A stretch of 64,000 nt of DNA from Roseateles aquatilis (GTDB lineage: Bacteria > Pseudomonadota > Gammaproteobacteria > Burkholderiales > Burkholderiaceae_C): positions 1-64,000 of the forward strand of contig NZ_NIOF01000014.1 of assembly GCF_002205645.1 (NCBI RefSeq), read 5' to 3'. Position 1 is the stretch's first letter. Each line of letters begins with the position of its first letter. Below the pieces are notes generated by a model, which saw only the letters and a list, made by a program, of their open reading frames with translations, searched no databases and had not been told where the DNA came from. The position numbers and the translations under genes were made by a program. Below are positions 50,509 to 59,116 of this stretch, in pieces.

Positions 50509-52149
<1,641 letters not shown>

Positions 52150-52220
52150 TCGCCGGGTGCTCCCGCGGTCCAGCGGTCCAAGCGGTTCAACAGGCCGATC
52201 GGCGATCCGGCACGTGGCAG

Positions 52221-52281
52221 GCCGGTGATCGAATCACCGGCTGATCACCGGCCGGAGCGACGCCGGATCAGCGGATCCGGC
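52221..52281. repeat. Inverted repeats between convergent prfC and the outer-membrane protein gene
   Basis: GCCGGTGAT (52221-52229) pairs with ATCACCGGC (52233-52241), and a third copy ATCACCGGCC starts at 52245, giving competing stems. GCCGGATC (52262-52269) pairs with GATCCGGC (52274-52281). No T-tract follows. They probably serve as a bidirectional transcript end. Confidence 0.6.
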
Positions 52282-52287
52282 CGTGGA

Positions 52288-52818
52288 TCAGAAGCGGAAC
52301 TCGGCGCCCACCGACCACAGTCCCGTGTTGATGCCGGCGTACCGTTCGTAGCCGCCGGTCAGCGAGACGCTGCGGCTCAGGTGCCAGGCCAGGCCGGCGC
52401 CGGCCGAGACCGTCGTCTTGTTGCGCCCGTCGTCGCGGAAGCCGCTGCCCGCGACCTTCATGCGTGTGTTGCCCACACCCAGGCGGCCGGTGGCGCTCCA
52501 GGATCCGCTCAGCGGCAGGTTGGCGGTGGCGGCAAGGCCGACGTGGGTCTCGGGATAGGAATAATTCTGCGACGACCAACCCGGGAACAGCTCGAAGCTC
52601 AGCGTGCGGTAGTAGACCTCGACGCCCACCGTCGAGTTGAAGCGGTAACCCACGCTGGATCCGAACGACGGGGTGCCGCGGGTCCGGTAGGTCTCGTTGG
52701 ACCCGCTCGCCCGGGCGAAGCTCACCGTGGCGTACATGCCTTCATCGGGCACCGACGGCGCCGCATGGGCCGCGCCCGCTCCCACGATCGCCGCGGCGAT
52801 CAACAGCCATTGCTTCAT
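52288..52818 (-). CDS. Outer-membrane beta-barrel protein (OmpW/OmpA-like fold)
   Basis: This 176-residue protein has a signal peptide (MKQWLLIAAAIVGAGAAHA). Alternating beta-strand sequence follows and ends in WSVGAEFRF, the C-terminal Phe typical of outer-membrane barrels. The length suggests eight strands. GGAGAGGACAAC precedes the ATG at 52818. The precise family and permeant are not clear; the frame continuing far upstream is not coding. Confidence 0.8.
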   Translation of the reverse strand: MKQWLLIAAAIVGAGAAHAAPSVPDEGMYATVSFARASGSNETYRTRGTPSFGSSVGYRFNSTVGVEVYYRTLSFELFPGWSSQNYSYPETHVGLAATANLPLSGSWSATGRLGVGNTRMKVAGSGFRDDGRNKTTVSAGAGLAWHLSRSVSLTGGYERYAGINTGLWSVGAEFRF

Positions 52819-53079
52819 GTTGTCCTCTCCCTGCGCCGCTGCCTGGCGGCCTGTTGCCTCGTGGTGCTCCGATCGGAGCGGGCCGCAGGATATCAATGCC
52901 GACGCGCACCGGCGCCGGGGTTTTCGTCGCTTCCCCCATCGGGGGGTGGGCGCCCTGTCAAGACCTGCCCCCACGCCGCGGACCGACGCGCGCCACGGCT
53001 TCGGCACTCGTGACATGCTTGGCGCCACGCGGCCGACATCGTTGTCGGTCGACCCTCCCGGCTCTCTACACTGCGTCGT

Positions 53080-53886
53080 ATGCCGTACGTGACCAGCCCG
53101 CCACCGGAGCTCCGCCGTGGCTGCCGCCTTCTGTTGGCGGCAGCCTTGCTGGTGGGCGCGCCGGGCCTGGCCCGCGCACAGCCCGGGCCGTCGGTGCCGC
53201 ATGGCTCCGCGGCGCTGCACGCGTTCACGGAGAACCTGCCGCCGCTCAACTACATGGAGGGGGGCGAGGCACAAGGCTTCAGCACCGAGCTGCTGCGCCT
53301 GATGGCGGCCGAGGCGGGCCTGACGCTGCGCATCGACGTGCTGCCGTGGCAGCGCTCGGTGCAAGAGGCCGCGCGGCAGCGGCACAGCGTGCTGTATTCG
53401 CTGACGCGCACGCCGGAGCGCGAGACCCAATACCGCTGGGTCGGCCCCATCAGCCCGCGCCGCATCCTCATCTATCGCCTCAGCCAGCGCACCGAGGCGC
53501 AGCCGCGCAGCCTGCAGCAGCTCGACGGCCTGCGGATCGGCGTCGCGCGCGATTCCGCCTCGGCCGCGTACCTGCTGGCGGCCGGGCTGCGGCCGGAGGT
53601 GGATCTGGAATTCGGCCTGGACGACGCCACCAACCTGCGCAAGCTGCTGGCCGGCCGCATGGACCTGATCGTCATGCTCGACTGGGCGGCGGCCTGGCAT
53701 CTGCGGCAGCTGAAGCTGCCGTACACGACGCTGACGCCGGTGCTGCCAATGGACGTGGACAAGTCCTACTGGTTCGGCCTGCCGCCCGACGCCGATCCGG
53801 CGGTGGCGCGCAAGCTGCAGGACGCGCTGGACCGCCTCAAGCGCGACGGTCGCTACGACCGGCTGCGGCAGCGGTACTTCAGCTGA
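53080..53886 (+). CDS. Periplasmic amino-acid-type binding protein (SBP_bac_3)
   Basis: This 268-residue protein has a signal region (CRLLLAAALLVGAPGLARA) and the two-lobed type-3 binding fold: FTENLPPLNYMEGGEAQGFSTELLRLMAAEAG, LPWQRSVQEA and LDGLRIGVARDSASAAYLL. It resembles orphan solute-binding proteins without neighbouring permease genes; none is here. Its ligand could be an amino acid or other small anion. The end overlaps the convergent epimerase gene by 8 bp. Confidence 0.82.
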   Translation: MPYVTSPPPELRRGCRLLLAAALLVGAPGLARAQPGPSVPHGSAALHAFTENLPPLNYMEGGEAQGFSTELLRLMAAEAGLTLRIDVLPWQRSVQEAARQRHSVLYSLTRTPERETQYRWVGPISPRRILIYRLSQRTEAQPRSLQQLDGLRIGVARDSASAAYLLAAGLRPEVDLEFGLDDATNLRKLLAGRMDLIVMLDWAAAWHLRQLKLPYTTLTPVLPMDVDKSYWFGLPPDADPAVARKLQDALDRLKRDGRYDRLRQRYFS

Positions 53887-54958
53887 AGGCGCGGCGCGCG
53901 TCCGCACCAGCGCCCGTCGACTCACCAACCGGCAGGCAGCCCAGCGACTCCAGCGTGCGTTCGACGGCGGCATCCAGCGGCGTGTGCGGCACGCCGCCAT
54001 CGCGGACCAGCTCGGCGGCCAGCCGCGCGCCATCCATGCGCAGCGGCTTGCGCCACAGGTAGCGCATCTCCGCCAGCTCCCGGAACAGCGGCACCACCGG
54101 CGCGCCCAGCCGCACCGCCCACCAGGGGAAACGACCGATGCGCGGTGCGACGCCGGAGCGCGCGCGGACCACGCGCCGGATCGCCTCGGCCATCTGGCGG
54201 CCGTCGGCATCCCAATGGCCGGCGAAGTGGAAACGCGCGAAGGCCGGCAGGCGCTCGCGGCGCTCGATCAGCGCGGCCATCGCCGCGGCGACATCCGGCA
54301 GGTAGGCCCATTGATGGCCGACGCCGTCCCGGCCCGGCTGCTGGATCCGCGTGACCGGCTTGCCGGGCGTCACCAGCCCTTGCGAGAACCAGTTGTTGGC
54401 CGCGTCCGGTCCGAAGAAGTCGCCGGCGCGGAGCACGATCGCGCGGAACTCGCCGCGCTCGGCGCCCTGGCGCAGGCGGCGTTCCATCTCGACGCGGATC
54501 GCGCCCTTGCGCGTCACGGGGCGCTGCGGCGCGTCCTCGCCGGGATGCGGCAGCGCGTCGGGACCGTAGTTGTAGACGGTGCCCGGCAGCACGACGGTGG
54601 CGCCACGCGCCCGGGCCGCGGCGAGGGTGTTGTCCAGCATCGGCAGCACCCACTCGCTCCAGCGCCGATACCCCGGCGGATTGACCGCGTGCACGATCAC
54701 CTCGCAGCCCTGCGCGGCGCGCTGCACGTCCATCGCGTCGAGCGCGTCGCCGCGCAACCAGAGCAGGCCGTCGCGCTGCTCGGACTCACTCGCCAGGCCG
54801 CGCTTGAGCGCCCGCACCGTCCATCCCGCGTCGCGCAGCCGCCGCGCCATTGCACCGCCGATGCCACCGCTCGCGCCCAGCACCAGCGCGATCCGACGCG
54901 CCGACGCCGTCATCGCGCCCAGCAGGCCCACCGCATCCATCGAAGTCATCGCATCCAT
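53879..54958 (-). CDS. NAD(P)-dependent epimerase/dehydratase-like protein
   Basis: This 359-residue extended SDR has the Rossmann motif VLGASGGIGGAMARRL near residue 27. Further on are DAMDVQRAAQGCEVIVHAVNPPGYRRW, GTVYNYGPDALPHPGE with the catalytic Tyr region atypical (YNYG), and VLRAGDFFGPDAANNW. It is related to NAD-dependent epimerases or atypical SDRs; the substrate is unknown. It is divergent from the LysR gene (96-bp gap), which may regulate it. Confidence 0.82.
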   Translation of the reverse strand: MDAMTSMDAVGLLGAMTASARRIALVLGASGGIGGAMARRLRDAGWTVRALKRGLASESEQRDGLLWLRGDALDAMDVQRAAQGCEVIVHAVNPPGYRRWSEWVLPMLDNTLAAARARGATVVLPGTVYNYGPDALPHPGEDAPQRPVTRKGAIRVEMERRLRQGAERGEFRAIVLRAGDFFGPDAANNWFSQGLVTPGKPVTRIQQPGRDGVGHQWAYLPDVAAAMAALIERRERLPAFARFHFAGHWDADGRQMAEAIRRVVRARSGVAPRIGRFPWWAVRLGAPVVPLFRELAEMRYLWRKPLRMDGARLAAELVRDGGVPHTPLDAAVERTLESLGCLPVGESTGAGADARRAFS

Positions 54959-55054
54959 CGCCAGCTCCTGTTCGTTGAAGGAATGGCGTCATTCTGAGAA
55001 CTGCGGGCCTCATTGAAAATTGGCGACTATCGACCTTCGGCTATACATTTTCGT

Positions 55055-55954
55055 ATGACTTCGACGATCGCATGGGAGTGGTACCGGTCCTTTCTGGGCG
55101 TGCTGCGGGAGGGCTCGTTGTCCGGCGCCGCGCGAGCGCTGGACCTGACGCAGCCGACGGTGGGCCGGCATGTGGCCGCGCTGGAGGCGCAGGTGGGTCA
55201 ATCGCTGTTCGTGCGCACGCCCTCGGGGCTGTCGCCGACGGAGGCGGCGCAGGCGCTGCGCCCCTATGCGGAGGCGATGGACAGCACCGCCGCCGCGCTG
55301 GAGCGCACGGCGCGCAGCCATGGCGACGGCGTCCGCGGCGTGGTACGTGTCACCGCCAGCGAGGTGGTCGGGGTGGAGGTCCTGCCGCCGGTGCTGGCCG
55401 AATTGCGCGAGCGGCATCCGGCGCTGATCGTGGAGCTGGTGCTGAGCAACCGCGTGCAGGACCTGCTGCGCCGCGAGGCCGACATCGCGATCCGGATGAC
55501 GTCGCCAAAGCAGGAGCAACTGATCGCGCGGCGCGTCGGCGTGGTCGAGGTCGCCGCTCACGCGCATGAGCGCTATCTGGCGGCGCATGGCATGCCGCGC
55601 TCGATGAAGACGCTGATCGCGGACGGCCACACGCTGATCGGATACGACCAGCCGGCGCCCTACATCCGCGAGCTCGCGCGGCGCTACCCGGTCATGGCGC
55701 GGGAGCGTTTCGCGCTGCGCTCCGACAGCGACCTGGCCCAGCTGGCGCTGATCCGCGCGGGCGCCGGGATCGGCCTGTGCCAGGTGGCGTTGGCCCGGCG
55801 CGATCCGGCGCTGCGGCGCGTGCTGGAGGACGAGCTCAGCATCCCGCTCGAAACCTGGGTCACGATGCACGAGGATCTGCGGGACAGCCCGCGATGCCGG
55901 GTGGTGTTCGAGGCGCTGATTTGCGGTCTCGGGCAACACATCGGACTCGGATAG
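55055..55954 (+). CDS. LysR-family regulator, probably of the divergent epimerase gene
   Basis: This 299-residue regulator has an N-terminal HTH (FLGVLREGSLSGAARALDLTQPTVGRHVAALEAQ) and a substrate domain from about residue 90. The ATG at 55055 gives MTSTIAWEWYRSFLGVL, the usual LysR start. The gene is divergent from the epimerase at 53879-54958, the classical arrangement of a LysR regulator and its target. Inducer unknown. Confidence 0.9.
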   Translation: MTSTIAWEWYRSFLGVLREGSLSGAARALDLTQPTVGRHVAALEAQVGQSLFVRTPSGLSPTEAAQALRPYAEAMDSTAAALERTARSHGDGVRGVVRVTASEVVGVEVLPPVLAELRERHPALIVELVLSNRVQDLLRREADIAIRMTSPKQEQLIARRVGVVEVAAHAHERYLAAHGMPRSMKTLIADGHTLIGYDQPAPYIRELARRYPVMARERFALRSDSDLAQLALIRAGAGIGLCQVALARRDPALRRVLEDELSIPLETWVTMHEDLRDSPRCRVVFEALICGLGQHIGLG

Positions 55955-56076
55955 AGGCCTCTCTTCGAGCATGCACGGGTCTCCGCCATCGACGACATTC
56001 AGGGGGTACTGGCACGCCGTCCTCAGCAGTTCCAGGTCGTTGGTCATTGCATTCGGCAGGGCTAAGCTCCACGCCC

Positions 56077-56967
56077 ATGGCCTACGACATCGTCTCGATT
56101 CCCGAGGACGCCCGAGAAGACACCGAACCACTCGGCAGCAAGCCCAAGTTCTGGGTGACGCTCGGCGGGGAGCGCTGGCTGTTCAAGGAGGCGCGTGAGA
56201 ACACGGGTGAGGATTGGTCGGAGAAGGTGGCCGCCGAACTCGCTCACGCCCTCGGCATTCCCGCCGCCAGAGTAGAGCTGGCGGACTACTGCGGGCGCCG
56301 TGGCTGCATCTCGCGCAGCTTCATGAATCCCGACGCGGGCGAAGAACTGGTGCACGGCAACGAAGTCCTCGCCTTCCATGTCACGGGCTATGACCGCACG
56401 AAGACATTCAATCAAGCGGATCACACATTGGACAACGTCGTCTCGGCGATGCATGCGCTGTTCCGCGAAACCCGCTTGGTGGGTCCCATGCTGACGACCC
56501 TCGCCGGCTATCTGGTGCTCGATGCGTTGATCGGCAACACCGATCGACATCACGAGAACTGGGGCTTGCTGATCCGCGCCGACCGGGCGGCAAACCGCTT
56601 TGCGGTGGGTGTCGCGCCAAGCTACGACCATGCCTCCTCGCTGGGTCGAGAACTGCTGGATCCCAGGCGGGCGGATCTGCTGCGGAACGCTCAGATCTCG
56701 CGCTACATCGAAAAGGGCAAGGGCGGCATCTTCCACGTGTCCTCCGACGTCCGAGGCGCCAATCCCCTCCGCCTGGTGGAGACGGCAGCCGTCGCATATC
56801 CTCACTACTTTCGTTCGGCGCTCATGTCTGTCACCGGACTGAGCGAGGAAACGATCAGCGGCATCGTGCATGCCCTGCCTGAAGCGCGCGCGACGACCAT
56901 GGCAAAACGCTTCGCGCTCGCCATGATCCTCCGCGCCCAACAATCCATGAACGAGATCCCCCGATGA
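56077..56967 (+). CDS. HipA-like Ser/Thr kinase core lacking N-subdomain 1
   Basis: This 296-residue kinase has a Gly-rich loop LGSKPKFW (residues about 19-26) corresponding to HipA's GAQEKTAL. LFKEA carries the ATP Lys. Catalytic DALIGNTDRHHENWG holds the HipA Asp and Asn, and the metal site is APSYDHASSLG. All expected kinase residues appear intact. The roughly 100-residue N-subdomain 1 of HipA is missing, as in HipT of HipBST. It overlaps the next gene by 4 bp. A visible shift to A/T-richer codons suggests transfer. Possible toxin or signalling kinase. Confidence 0.8.
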   Translation: MAYDIVSIPEDAREDTEPLGSKPKFWVTLGGERWLFKEARENTGEDWSEKVAAELAHALGIPAARVELADYCGRRGCISRSFMNPDAGEELVHGNEVLAFHVTGYDRTKTFNQADHTLDNVVSAMHALFRETRLVGPMLTTLAGYLVLDALIGNTDRHHENWGLLIRADRAANRFAVGVAPSYDHASSLGRELLDPRRADLLRNAQISRYIEKGKGGIFHVSSDVRGANPLRLVETAAVAYPHYFRSALMSVTGLSEETISGIVHALPEARATTMAKRFALAMILRAQQSMNEIPR

Positions 56968-57701
56968 ACACGCTCTTCCTCGCATGGCAGACACCACGCC
57001 CAACCCGGGCATGGTTCCCCATCGGCCGCCTCGACGCGGAAGACCACCATTTCGTCTTTCGCTATACGGGAGGGGCGATCAAGGCTCAAGAGGAAGCGGG
57101 GTTCAGCGCGCTCATTGCATTCCCAGACCTGAATCGCCGCTACGAGGCCGACGAGCTATTCCCCCTCTTCAAGAATCGAATCCTCGACCCCAATCGCAAG
57201 GACTTCGCCGAGTACCTGGGGTGGCTCGACATGGATCCGCTAAGAGCCGATCCGGTCGAGATCCTGGGTCTCACCGGCGGGGAACGGGAGACGGACAGCC
57301 TCGAAGTCTTTCCCAAGCTCGAGAAACGGGCTGACGGATCGATCTGCAGCCGATTCTTTCTGCATGGCTTGCGCCACGTATCGTCGGAGGCACAGATCCG
57401 CGCCAAACGACTGATGCCAGGCGAGAAGCTGCAGGTGGCGATCGAAGTCAACAACCCAGCGACCGGTTTCGCGATCCAACTGCAAACATCCGATGGGCAT
57501 TTGATTGGCTGGGCGCCTCGCTACCTCATTGAAGACTTGCGTCAGGGTTTGATCGAACCTTCGGCAATCACCGCCGAGGTACGCAGGATCAATGAACTCG
57601 GCGCCCCCTTCGCTCGCCGCGTGCTGATCGAACTACGCTGCGGCCTACCGGCGTCCTTTCAACCGATGACGTCAAGCGACTACACCGTGCTCACGCCGTA
57701 G
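56964..57701 (+). CDS. HipS/HipA-N-like domain fused to a HIRAN-like domain
   Basis: This 245-residue protein appears to have two parts. Residues about 25-115 (HFVFRYTGGAIKAQEEAGFSA, FPDLNRRYEADELFPLFKNRI, then EYLGWLD and DPVEILGLTGGERETDSLEVFP) follow the order of elements in HipA N-subdomain 1, the part that stands alone as HipS in HipBST. Residues about 130-200 (FFLHGLRHVSSEAQIRAKRLMPGEKLQVAIEV and LIGWAPRYLIEDL) resemble a HIRAN domain. The ATG overlaps the kinase stop. It could be the kinase's inhibitor or substrate adaptor. Both domain calls are by eye. Confidence 0.7.
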   Translation: MNTLFLAWQTPRPTRAWFPIGRLDAEDHHFVFRYTGGAIKAQEEAGFSALIAFPDLNRRYEADELFPLFKNRILDPNRKDFAEYLGWLDMDPLRADPVEILGLTGGERETDSLEVFPKLEKRADGSICSRFFLHGLRHVSSEAQIRAKRLMPGEKLQVAIEVNNPATGFAIQLQTSDGHLIGWAPRYLIEDLRQGLIEPSAITAEVRRINELGAPFARRVLIELRCGLPASFQPMTSSDYTVLTP

Positions 57702-57736
57702 TCGGTCGAGGCCTGGTGCTTGAAGCGACGATTGGA

Positions 57737-57759
57737 GGCGGGGCGTTCAACGCCCCGCC
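57737..57759. terminator. Hairpin between the HIRAN gene and the convergent hydrolase
   Basis: GGCGGGGCGTT (57737-57747) and AACGCCCCGCC (57749-57759) form a strong inverted repeat. It lies 35 bp after the HIRAN gene stop and just beyond the metallo-beta-lactamase gene stop on the other strand. No T-tract is present, so it is probably a bidirectional stabilising hairpin or weak terminator. Confidence 0.65.
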
Positions 57760-57766
57760 CTGCCGG

Positions 57767-58759
57767 TCAGGGCTTGATGCTGTAGTTCACCGGCACCCAG
57801 CGATAGCCCTTGCCGTCCTGCGCCACGTGGCCGATGCCCGGGAAGGACACATGCGCGATGGCGACCCAGTAGCCGTTCTTCGCGGCGTCCGCGTAGGCCT
57901 GGCGACGCTGCGGCATCGCGGCCTTCGAGTCCGAGTCGAAGTTGATCGTCACCGTCGGGTCCGGGAACTGCACCGCCGCGACGTGCATCAGGTCGCCCCA
58001 CACCGCCAGCTTCTGGCCCTGGCTCTCGACCAGGTAGACCGTGTGGCCCGGCGTGTGGCCGTAGGCCGCATGGGTGCGGATGCCGGGGACCAGCTCGGTC
58101 TCGCCGCTGAACGGCTTCAGGCGGCCGGCGTCCTTGTAGGGCTTCAGCGATGCGATCGCCGCGCCGAAGAAGTCCTTGTGGCCCGGCGCTTCCTTGACCG
58201 CGTTGTCGGCGTTGAGCCAGAAATCGGCGTCACGCTGGTCCAGCCGCACCACCGCGTTCGGAAACACCGCCTGGCCGTCCTTCGTCAGGCCCGCGACGTG
58301 GTCGGGATGCAGGTGGGTGATGTAGACCTCGTCGACCTGCTCGGGCTGGTAGCCCGCGGCTTTCAGGTTGGCCAGCAGCTTGCCGGTGGTGGGACCGAAG
58401 GCGCCGTTGGCCCCCGTGTCGATCAGCACCAGCTTGGTGCCGGTGTTGATGAGGTAGGCGTTGATCGAGGTCTCGACCGGCGGCTTCAGATACGACTTCT
58501 GCAGCGCCTTCACCACCGTGCCCGGCTTGGCCTTGTCCATCAGCTGATCGACGGGCAGGTCGATGGTGCCGTCGCTGAGCGCGGTGATTTCGAAGTCCCC
58601 CAGCATCATCCGGTAGTAGCCCGGCGCCTGCGTCTTCACCTGCGGCGCGGCCGCGTGCGCGCCGACGGCGCCCAGAGAAAGCGCGATTCCGGCGGCGGTG
58701 GCGAGGGCGGCAAGGCGTCCACGGAATTGTCCGCGGATAGGTGCGTGGTCACGGGTCAT
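57767..58759 (-). CDS. Exported metallo-beta-lactamase-fold hydrolase
   Basis: This 330-residue protein has a signal peptide (LAALATAAGIALSLGAVGAHA) and an MBL domain with the zinc motif THLHPDH (about residue 140), LVLIDTGANGAFGP, GHTPGHTVYLVES and WGDLMHVAAVQFPDP. It resembles secreted quorum-quenching lactonase-like or alkylsulfatase-like MBL proteins, but the substrate is not clear. The ATG at 58759 gives MTRDHAPIRGQFRGRL. The 357-bp gap upstream is shared with the liv operon. Confidence 0.85.
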   Translation of the reverse strand: MTRDHAPIRGQFRGRLAALATAAGIALSLGAVGAHAAAPQVKTQAPGYYRMMLGDFEITALSDGTIDLPVDQLMDKAKPGTVVKALQKSYLKPPVETSINAYLINTGTKLVLIDTGANGAFGPTTGKLLANLKAAGYQPEQVDEVYITHLHPDHVAGLTKDGQAVFPNAVVRLDQRDADFWLNADNAVKEAPGHKDFFGAAIASLKPYKDAGRLKPFSGETELVPGIRTHAAYGHTPGHTVYLVESQGQKLAVWGDLMHVAAVQFPDPTVTINFDSDSKAAMPQRRQAYADAAKNGYWVAIAHVSFPGIGHVAQDGKGYRWVPVNYSIKP

Positions 58760-59116
58760 GGCGAGCTCCTGTTGCATGGGAAGACCGGCCCCTGGACCGG
58801 CAGCCGCGCAGCATAGCCACCAGCGCGCGGACGTGCCCTTCCCGAATGGCAGAAGCACCGTTCTCCCACAGGAGATTCCGGTGACACACGACGGTCGGAA
58901 CAGGGTCTGTGGCAAGCGCTTTCGACGGTGCTGTCAGTCTCATGCAAGACGGTTGCGGCGTAGTTGATGCAGGCTGTCAGCCCCCCTCGAAATCACCAAG
59001 GGTTAGCCCTTGCGCAATGCTGCGTAAAGGGTTTTACGCTGTGTGGGGCGGCGCTGATCGCCCTAAATTCCCCCCTCCACTACCGAGGCTCCGACAACGG
59101 CGCCCACATTGCGCCG
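58760..59116. other. Shared upstream region of the hydrolase gene and the liv operon
   Basis: These 357 bases carry no supported gene. Two dyads near the liv side are visible: AAGGG (58998-59002) / CCCTT (59007-59011) and GCGTAAA (59022-59028) / TTTACGC (59033-59039). They may be regulator-binding sites for the liv operon. I found no clear -35/-10 pair or sigma-54 promoter. Confidence 0.5.

Follow-up and report, generated by a model that had tools for sequence, protein, structure and literature searches.

The closest described system to the locus examined here is hipIN, in which a gene for a small kinase, HipI, is followed by one for HipN, a protein joining a HipS-like domain to a HIRAN domain. 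According to the passages of Gerdes et al. (2021, mBio, PMC8262856) that deal with it, hipIN kinases measure 279–321 aa and form clade XI of the Hip tree; it is proposed there that HipN neutralises HipI and that HIRAN recognises the DNA ends of invading phage, leading to activation of the kinase. HipBST, described from Escherichia coli O127 and Legionella, is likewise a split HipA with a separate HipS (PMC10627512, PMC9325769). Trp65 of HipS blocks HipT, and this residue is found in many, but not all, HipS proteins (PMC10627512). HipA and HIRAN genes are also listed among the gene clusters of diDNases (PMC11706625). A literature search found no published experiment on any hipIN.

A stretch of 64,000 nucleotides of Roseateles aquatilis DNA (the window) carries a pair of overlapping genes (Table 1) that is a member of hipIN: every feature of the system that was checked was found, namely a kinase of 296 aa, the kinase gene first, and a partner with a HipS-like N-terminal half and a HIRAN C-terminal half. 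Both component profiles of the PADLOC candidate system PDC-M03 were also matched in the adjacent genes (PDC-M03A against HipI, E 3.7e-84; PDC-M03B against HipN, E 1e-79), PDC-M03 being a candidate label only, the name of which is absent from the literature searched. An initial annotation, made from the letters alone, had described a split HipA with overlapping genes and had set it against HipBST, since the kinase comes first, HIRAN is fused to the partner and there is no HipB. The overlap is real and the contrast correct; the anatomy stands, but the arrangement is not new, as both it and the contrast are already in Gerdes et al. (2021), who also put forward the same idea of a response to phage through its DNA ends.

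Table 1. Features of the hipIN locus in the window (positions from the first letter of the window)
Feature	Position	Strand	Basis
Segment absent from six congeneric genomes	55944..57770		ends per comparison with G311
hipI, HipA-family Ser/Thr kinase core without N-subdomain 1 (296 aa)	56077..56967	+	ORF, HipA_C, PDC-M03A
Gly-rich loop GSKPKFW, residues 20-26	56134..56154	+	alignment of 51 kinases
Lys37, putative ATP-binding lysine	56185..56187	+	invariant in 51 aligned kinases
Catalytic motif NTDRHHEN, residues 154-161	56536..56559	+	alignment of 51 kinases
Mg-binding motif PSYDH, residues 181-185	56617..56631	+	alignment of 51 kinases
ATGA, hipI stop / hipN start overlap, 4 bp	56964..56967	+	sequence
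hipN, putative antitoxin, HipS-like and HIRAN domains (245 aa)	56964..57701	+	ORF, PDC-M03B, structure model
HipS-like domain, HipN residues 1-119	56964..57320	+	fold and profile match
HIRAN domain, HipN residues 122-240	57327..57683	+	fold match
Perfect 11-bp inverted repeat, 1-nt loop, downstream of hipN	57737..57759		sequence

HipI scored 45 bits against HipA_C of Pfam, where 30.5 is the cut-off, and matched no HipA N-terminal family of Pfam at E up to 1, bearing out the suggestion that the kinase lacks N-subdomain 1; NCBIfam gave no match near cut-off. Its start was set at the ATG at 56077 because homologues align from there, an alternative longer in-frame ORF beginning at 55777, within the neighbouring LysR gene. 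Across an alignment of 51 kinases, window HipI included, the family keeps the G-loop LGSKPKFW, Lys37, NTDRHHEN and P-[ST]-[YF]-D-H, with G20, K24, K37, N154, D156, R157, H158, H159, N161, P181 and D184 invariant in 51/51, so that the full set of HipA catalytic motifs is present, as had been claimed. The ATP-binding role of Lys37 is assigned by analogy with the family, and residue 21, which is Ser or Thr in all 51, is a possible autophosphorylation site. The kinase had been called ‘HipT-like’, a label that fared less well than the split-HipA description: by profile comparison CtkA is nearer to HipI than HipT is, and is its nearest solved relative, as it is also nearer to the modelled fold of a natural fusion relative. 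Judged in this way, the protein is a HipI-type kinase for which ‘HipT-like’ is a loose name. HipA_C was matched at seven places in the whole window genome; one of these, on contig 45 (L006; 49.6 bits, profile positions 43-165 of 213, in a seemingly truncated frame), is probably what is left of a further HipA-family kinase.

Because comparing the HipN sequence with those of solved structures returned nothing useful, its structural identity was decided by a fold search with the predicted model (pLDDT 92.8). The N-terminal half matched HipS and the HipA N-domain, and the C-terminal half matched HIRAN domains, including those of HLTF and Rad5. Profile alignment of the N-terminal half with the HipA N-domain (hhalign) gave 76.9%, as against at most 2.2% in 20 column shuffles and 0.2% for the C-terminal half. 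Pfam HIRAN matched the C-terminal half at 22.1 bits (E 1.4e-4), under the cut-off of 24.7, and the assignment is kept because the fold search supports it. No NCBIfam family and none of the HTH families of Pfam matched HipN. The subdomain missing from the kinase thus appears in its partner, fused to HIRAN, as the initial annotation had proposed; it had named structural matches as a test, and both halves show the folds that it named.

On the basis of a profile alignment and the published numbering, the position of HipN equivalent to HipS Trp65 is Asn77, a residue that varies across 64 homologues and that lies in a loop whose alignment is itself inferred. If HipN is an inhibitor, it therefore probably does not act through a Trp65-type wedge at the same place. 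Arg72 and Arg78, which flank this loop and are invariant in 64/64, are natural candidate residues for inhibition. Two HipN proteins (P0241 and P0245) carry additional C-terminal sequence, which in P0245 is PF11867, a type I restriction enzyme subunit C-terminal domain, suggesting a fusion of HipN to a fragment of HsdR.

In the window, hipIN has a LysR gene on one side and a gene for a metallo-beta-lactamase-fold protein on the other. The former encodes a regulator with an HTH 122 bp upstream of the pair on the same strand, so the earlier statement that no HTH repressor is adjacent was mistaken. Membership of the LysR gene in the module was considered and rejected, as it is retained in six relatives that lack the pair: in 6/15 other genomes of the genus the two flanking genes are only 25–104 bp apart, with no pair between them. 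HipN was found in one of these 15 genomes (G313; 2/16 with the window), where the pair is flanked by prfC and the metallo-beta-lactamase-fold gene and shares 68% DNA identity with that of the window, compared with 83–90% for the flanks. The stretch from prfC to the metallo-beta-lactamase-fold gene (window 50509-58915, L152) varies within the genus, containing LysR and other genes, hipIN, or a gene for an outer-membrane beta-barrel. Codon use in the pair is A/T-richer than in its surroundings, as first noted (GC3 0.78 and 0.73 vs 0.87–0.95 in seven nearby genes). No sigma-70-type promoter, the only promoter type sought, was found in the 2 kb scanned, and a terminator scan of the locus was negative; the inverted repeat downstream of hipN is a possible terminator, though it has no T-run. 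No restriction gene was seen beside the pair among the genes examined, and the single HSDR_N/HsdR match of the genome is on another contig.

Pairing of kinase homologues with this partner had also been put forward as a test, and homologues were found with HipN in every survey. Profile searches of 399 genomes of the window's family placed kinase and HipN in the same five, adjacent to one another. Among 299 genomes of its phylum there were 12 full-length HipN genes (HIRAN-only and partial matches left out), 7 with an intact upstream kinase (not counting hits on other HipA kinases that were short and weak); in the other five, the kinase had a stop (G157), the contig ended (G088, G184) or no kinase was matched (G085, G137). 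The phylum of the cyanobacterium Anabaenopsis (G764) yielded 19 HipN genes in 17 of 194 genomes, 11 with an intact kinase, 5 with a remnant and 3 with none in the 1.5 kb fetched; 11/11 intact kinases there have HipN, and two kinase fragments (G927, G859:C26) were found without it. Taking the three surveys together, with an intact kinase defined as an open match without stop or contig end and the window genome counted once, 22/22 intact kinases are followed by HipN, and the kinase is broken or missing for 11/35 HipN genes, two more being cut by a contig end. A sign test of 11 vs 0 gives about 0.001 if loci are independent, which they are only in part. Two full-length HipN-like proteins from the window's phylum (L017, L019) had no HipI-type kinase by profile.

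The same asymmetry was seen in a separate scan of 68 loci, a set gathered by HipN words and hence favouring HipN: after 7/68 were set aside as contig-end cases, the remaining 61 comprised 41 with both genes intact, 14 with HipN only, none with the kinase only, and 6 with both broken. Single frame breaks, which may be sequencing errors, account for 5/14 of the broken kinases (L047, L052, L060, L061, L097). In seven cases (L047, L069, L080, L087, L091, L221, L223) the nearest HipN relative by dS keeps its kinase, from which it follows that kinase losses have been repeated and are mostly recent; on the chromosome of Anabaenopsis elenkinii (L087), 53 of about 290 kinase residues are left. Pairs including an orphan HipN had dN/dS of 0.04–0.27 (0.42 in one very close pair), resembling paired HipN, but since the losses are recent this ratio does not demonstrate selection on the orphans. 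As read from these sequences, the decay pattern is that of a toxin that would not be keepable alone, which is the type II toxin-antitoxin criterion. The 4-bp overlap recurs in 32 of 41 measurable homologous pairs (starts were script-chosen as nearest the profile start, and 27/68 loci had no measurable distance). The window genes simply overlap, and neither a programmed nor a natural fusion is proposed for them; a natural one-chain fusion of 552 aa does exist elsewhere (P0244; model pTM 0.65), its partner part 51% identical to window HipN.

HipN is carried by mobile elements, with matches in four Vibrio phage records and seven plasmid records. In the two Vibrio phage records inspected (Vinavirales) hipI-hipN lies beside the integrase, and in Clostridioides phage phiCDKH02 a HipA/HIRAN pair adjoins the integrase; the kinases at these integrase-side sites match the HipI profile at E 2.3e-41 or better. 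Escherichia phage 899 encodes a 519-aa protein of HipL type. Its kinase part matches the HipI profile at E 7.6e-24, and two further domains exceed their Pfam cut-offs, Couple_hipA (HipA N-terminal) at 26.9 bits and HIRAN at 41.4 bits. The gene stands between the replication endonuclease and portal genes and is preceded by one for an exoribonuclease.

Relatives of the pair are also found in type I restriction–modification (R-M) operons. Type I R-M genes occurred near 19/68 hipIN loci, compared with 0/34 control regions, each 16 kb long and drawn from those genomes, and at 5/17 loci of a matched set vs the same 0/34 controls (Fisher p 0.0026), 12/15 of the R-M queries having been cut from hipIN loci and at least 3 of these from the matched set's own members. 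The HsdM and HsdS queries of an outside Rhodococcus plasmid, used alone, returned 12/68, the same 5/17, and 0/34 controls. A looser count of 6/17 was rejected as inflated by an Eco57I-like methylase in L056. At 49/68 loci, many with short flanks, there was no type I R-M gene. A domain search made without the R-M queries, in which a scored gene lay within 1 kb after hipN in 57/68 loci and before hipI in 57, placed HSDR_N on the gene next after hipN in 9/57 and Methylase_S on the gene next before hipI in 8/57. A PfkB-family gene came next after hipN in 11/57 loci, which by their coordinates are Nostocales sharing an ORF there, a fixed chromosomal site. At 1e-15 no type I R-M model of PADLOC matched the 195 sampled control proteins. 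At this threshold, PADLOC models numbered 97 + 72 for 195 script-picked ORFs near 17 loci and 24 + 23 for 195 control ORFs (a random sample of 467, with a Cas9 locus in their lists), an excess that is only suggestive as it counts models, not proteins, and as the models near the loci were listed for just 25 of the 97 and 25 of the 72, the control lists being complete.

A contiguous hsdS-hipI-hipN-hsdR order, in which the hsdR match begins some 10 bp or less from the stop codon of hipN, was present in five loci: L077 and L078 (Nitrospira), L101 (Phycisphaerae), L106 (Acetothermia) and L109 (Opitutales). Nesting between hsdS and hsdR thereby extends over Nitrospirota, Planctomycetota, Verrucomicrobiota and a Bipolaricaulota genome. 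Relatives of Rhodocyclaceae type (L066, L068, L075) have hsdM-hsdS-hipI-hipN, and in the Rhodococcus plasmid the order is helicase gene, hsdS, hipIN pair, methyltransferase gene; the kinase of this plasmid (L239:2076-2945), a hypothetical protein by its annotation, gives E 6.9e-63 with the HipI profile and lacks the usual N-x-D-R-H motif by pattern. The R-M label (17 rows with adjoining R-M genes; L064, with a methylase 2.5 kb away, scored as without) needs 6 changes on the HipN tree, 5 of them forced by starred branches, the tree having been built by a quick method that put the phage and plasmid rows on long branches, and 12 rows with short flanks having been left out. To judge from search summaries, no published description of a HipA/HIRAN pair nested in a type I restriction operon was found.

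Two loci have about 63 codons of the beginning of hsdR upstream of hipI (L079:8777-8965, L060:1890-2078), 59–62% identical in protein sequence to the full hsdR downstream of hipN. These remnants are perhaps a footprint of the pair's arrival at the joint of hsdS and hsdR; a fresh duplication as their source was rejected, the protein identity being only 59–62%. Three type I loci (L060, L069, L072) keep hipN with the kinase frame-broken or lost, so that at these loci HipN may last, or have a use, in the absence of HipI.

We consider it probable, if well short of assured, that hipIN is a module of toxin–antitoxin type in which HipN restrains HipI until DNA ends or single-stranded DNA engage the HIRAN domain and release a growth-stopping kinase. 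By analogy with HipS and HipT, the HipS-like half of HipN would hold HipI inactive by blocking its active site. The HIRAN half would be the sensor, binding ends or single-stranded DNA that arise in phage attack or DNA damage, and such binding would loosen the HipN–HipI complex and free the kinase. Freed HipI, as we infer from HipA and HipT, would then phosphorylate a translation factor, the likely outcome being growth arrest. The genomic surroundings favour a part in defence for the family, though not directly for the window copy, and the sensing of DNA damage or phage suggested in the initial annotation is a conjecture.

HipN could instead be a positive targeting subunit, its HIRAN domain bringing HipI to DNA ends or stalled forks, so that the kinase, no toxin at all, would signal in repair by phosphorylating a repair or replication protein. 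HIRAN is after all the DNA-end module of the fork-remodelling enzymes returned by the fold search, HipI belongs to a kinase type without a known target, and HipN outlives its kinase with dN/dS of about 0.1–0.2 in most comparisons and may have a job of its own. Yet the unfailing company of HipN with intact kinases is what would be expected if free kinase were harmful, and the patchy distribution (5/399 in the family, 2/16 in the genus) fits defence better than housekeeping repair, as do phage and plasmid carriage and nesting in R-M operons; we regard a targeting role as unlikely. The one-sided decay, the carriage on plasmids and phages, and a stand-alone pair that is present or absent at the window site would all suit a plain addiction module stabilising the surrounding DNA, with HIRAN serving autoregulation or the stability of the antitoxin. 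That the antitoxin gene comes second, that no HTH family was matched, that R-M genes cluster near the loci and not in control regions, and that HIRAN is an end-binding rather than an operator-binding fold make this a quite improbable account. It is more doubtful still, and indeed very improbable, that the pair is decayed or unexpressed in the window genome: the failure to find a sigma-70-type promoter and the A/T-richer codons would agree with it, but both frames are open, no residue invariant in the family has been lost, and G313 also has a pair at the prfC/metallo-beta-lactamase-fold locus.

The restraint-and-release reading can be taken a step further, to a proposal that is possible but doubtful: hipIN may be a suicide arm of restriction, in which HIRAN reads ends or single-stranded DNA produced by the neighbouring type I enzyme and frees HipI. 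In the nested form, hsdM-hsdS-hipI-hipN-hsdR, the ends or single strands would arise as the enzyme cuts phage DNA or stalls there, and stand-alone copies such as that of the window would respond to ends left by enzymes whose genes lie elsewhere. If so, a single DNA-end sensor would wire restriction and abortive infection together. HipA-type kinases are central to persistence research, and to our knowledge the trigger of most of them has not been established; a presumed inhibitor with a DNA-end-binding fold would offer a concrete one. Nesting between hsdS and hsdR would make this trigger directly testable in a cloned restriction operon, and the invariant Arg72 and Arg78, beside a loop lacking the tryptophan wedge of HipS, are targets for point mutation.

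Among systems with which the pair may be compared, PrrC-type anticodon nucleases sit inside type I R-M operons and resemble it in placing a growth-stopping effector among hsd genes, with the differences that they are of another protein family, the case here being a kinase pair, and that for hipIN it is the relatives, not the window copy, that show such placement. CtkA of Helicobacter pylori, which is not known to have a HipN partner, is near HipI by kinase profile, and no common role is claimed. HipBST is similar in keeping its HipS-like domain apart from the kinase core, but the window pair has no HipB, has its kinase gene first and has its HipS-like part fused to HIRAN, which rules out membership, and the position aligned with Trp65 is not Trp in window HipN (compared with HipBST as described in PMC10627512 and PMC9325769). 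HipL, as presented in the relevant passages of Gerdes et al. (2021), has kinase, HipS-like and HIRAN parts in the order seen in the window, in one chain where the window has two genes. The passages on hipIN in that paper name no restriction operons, phage-borne copies or pattern of kinase loss (PMC8262856). With hipIN as characterised there, the window pair agrees in gene order, kinase size, the missing N-subdomain 1, a partner that is HipS-like and then HIRAN, and the lack of HipB.
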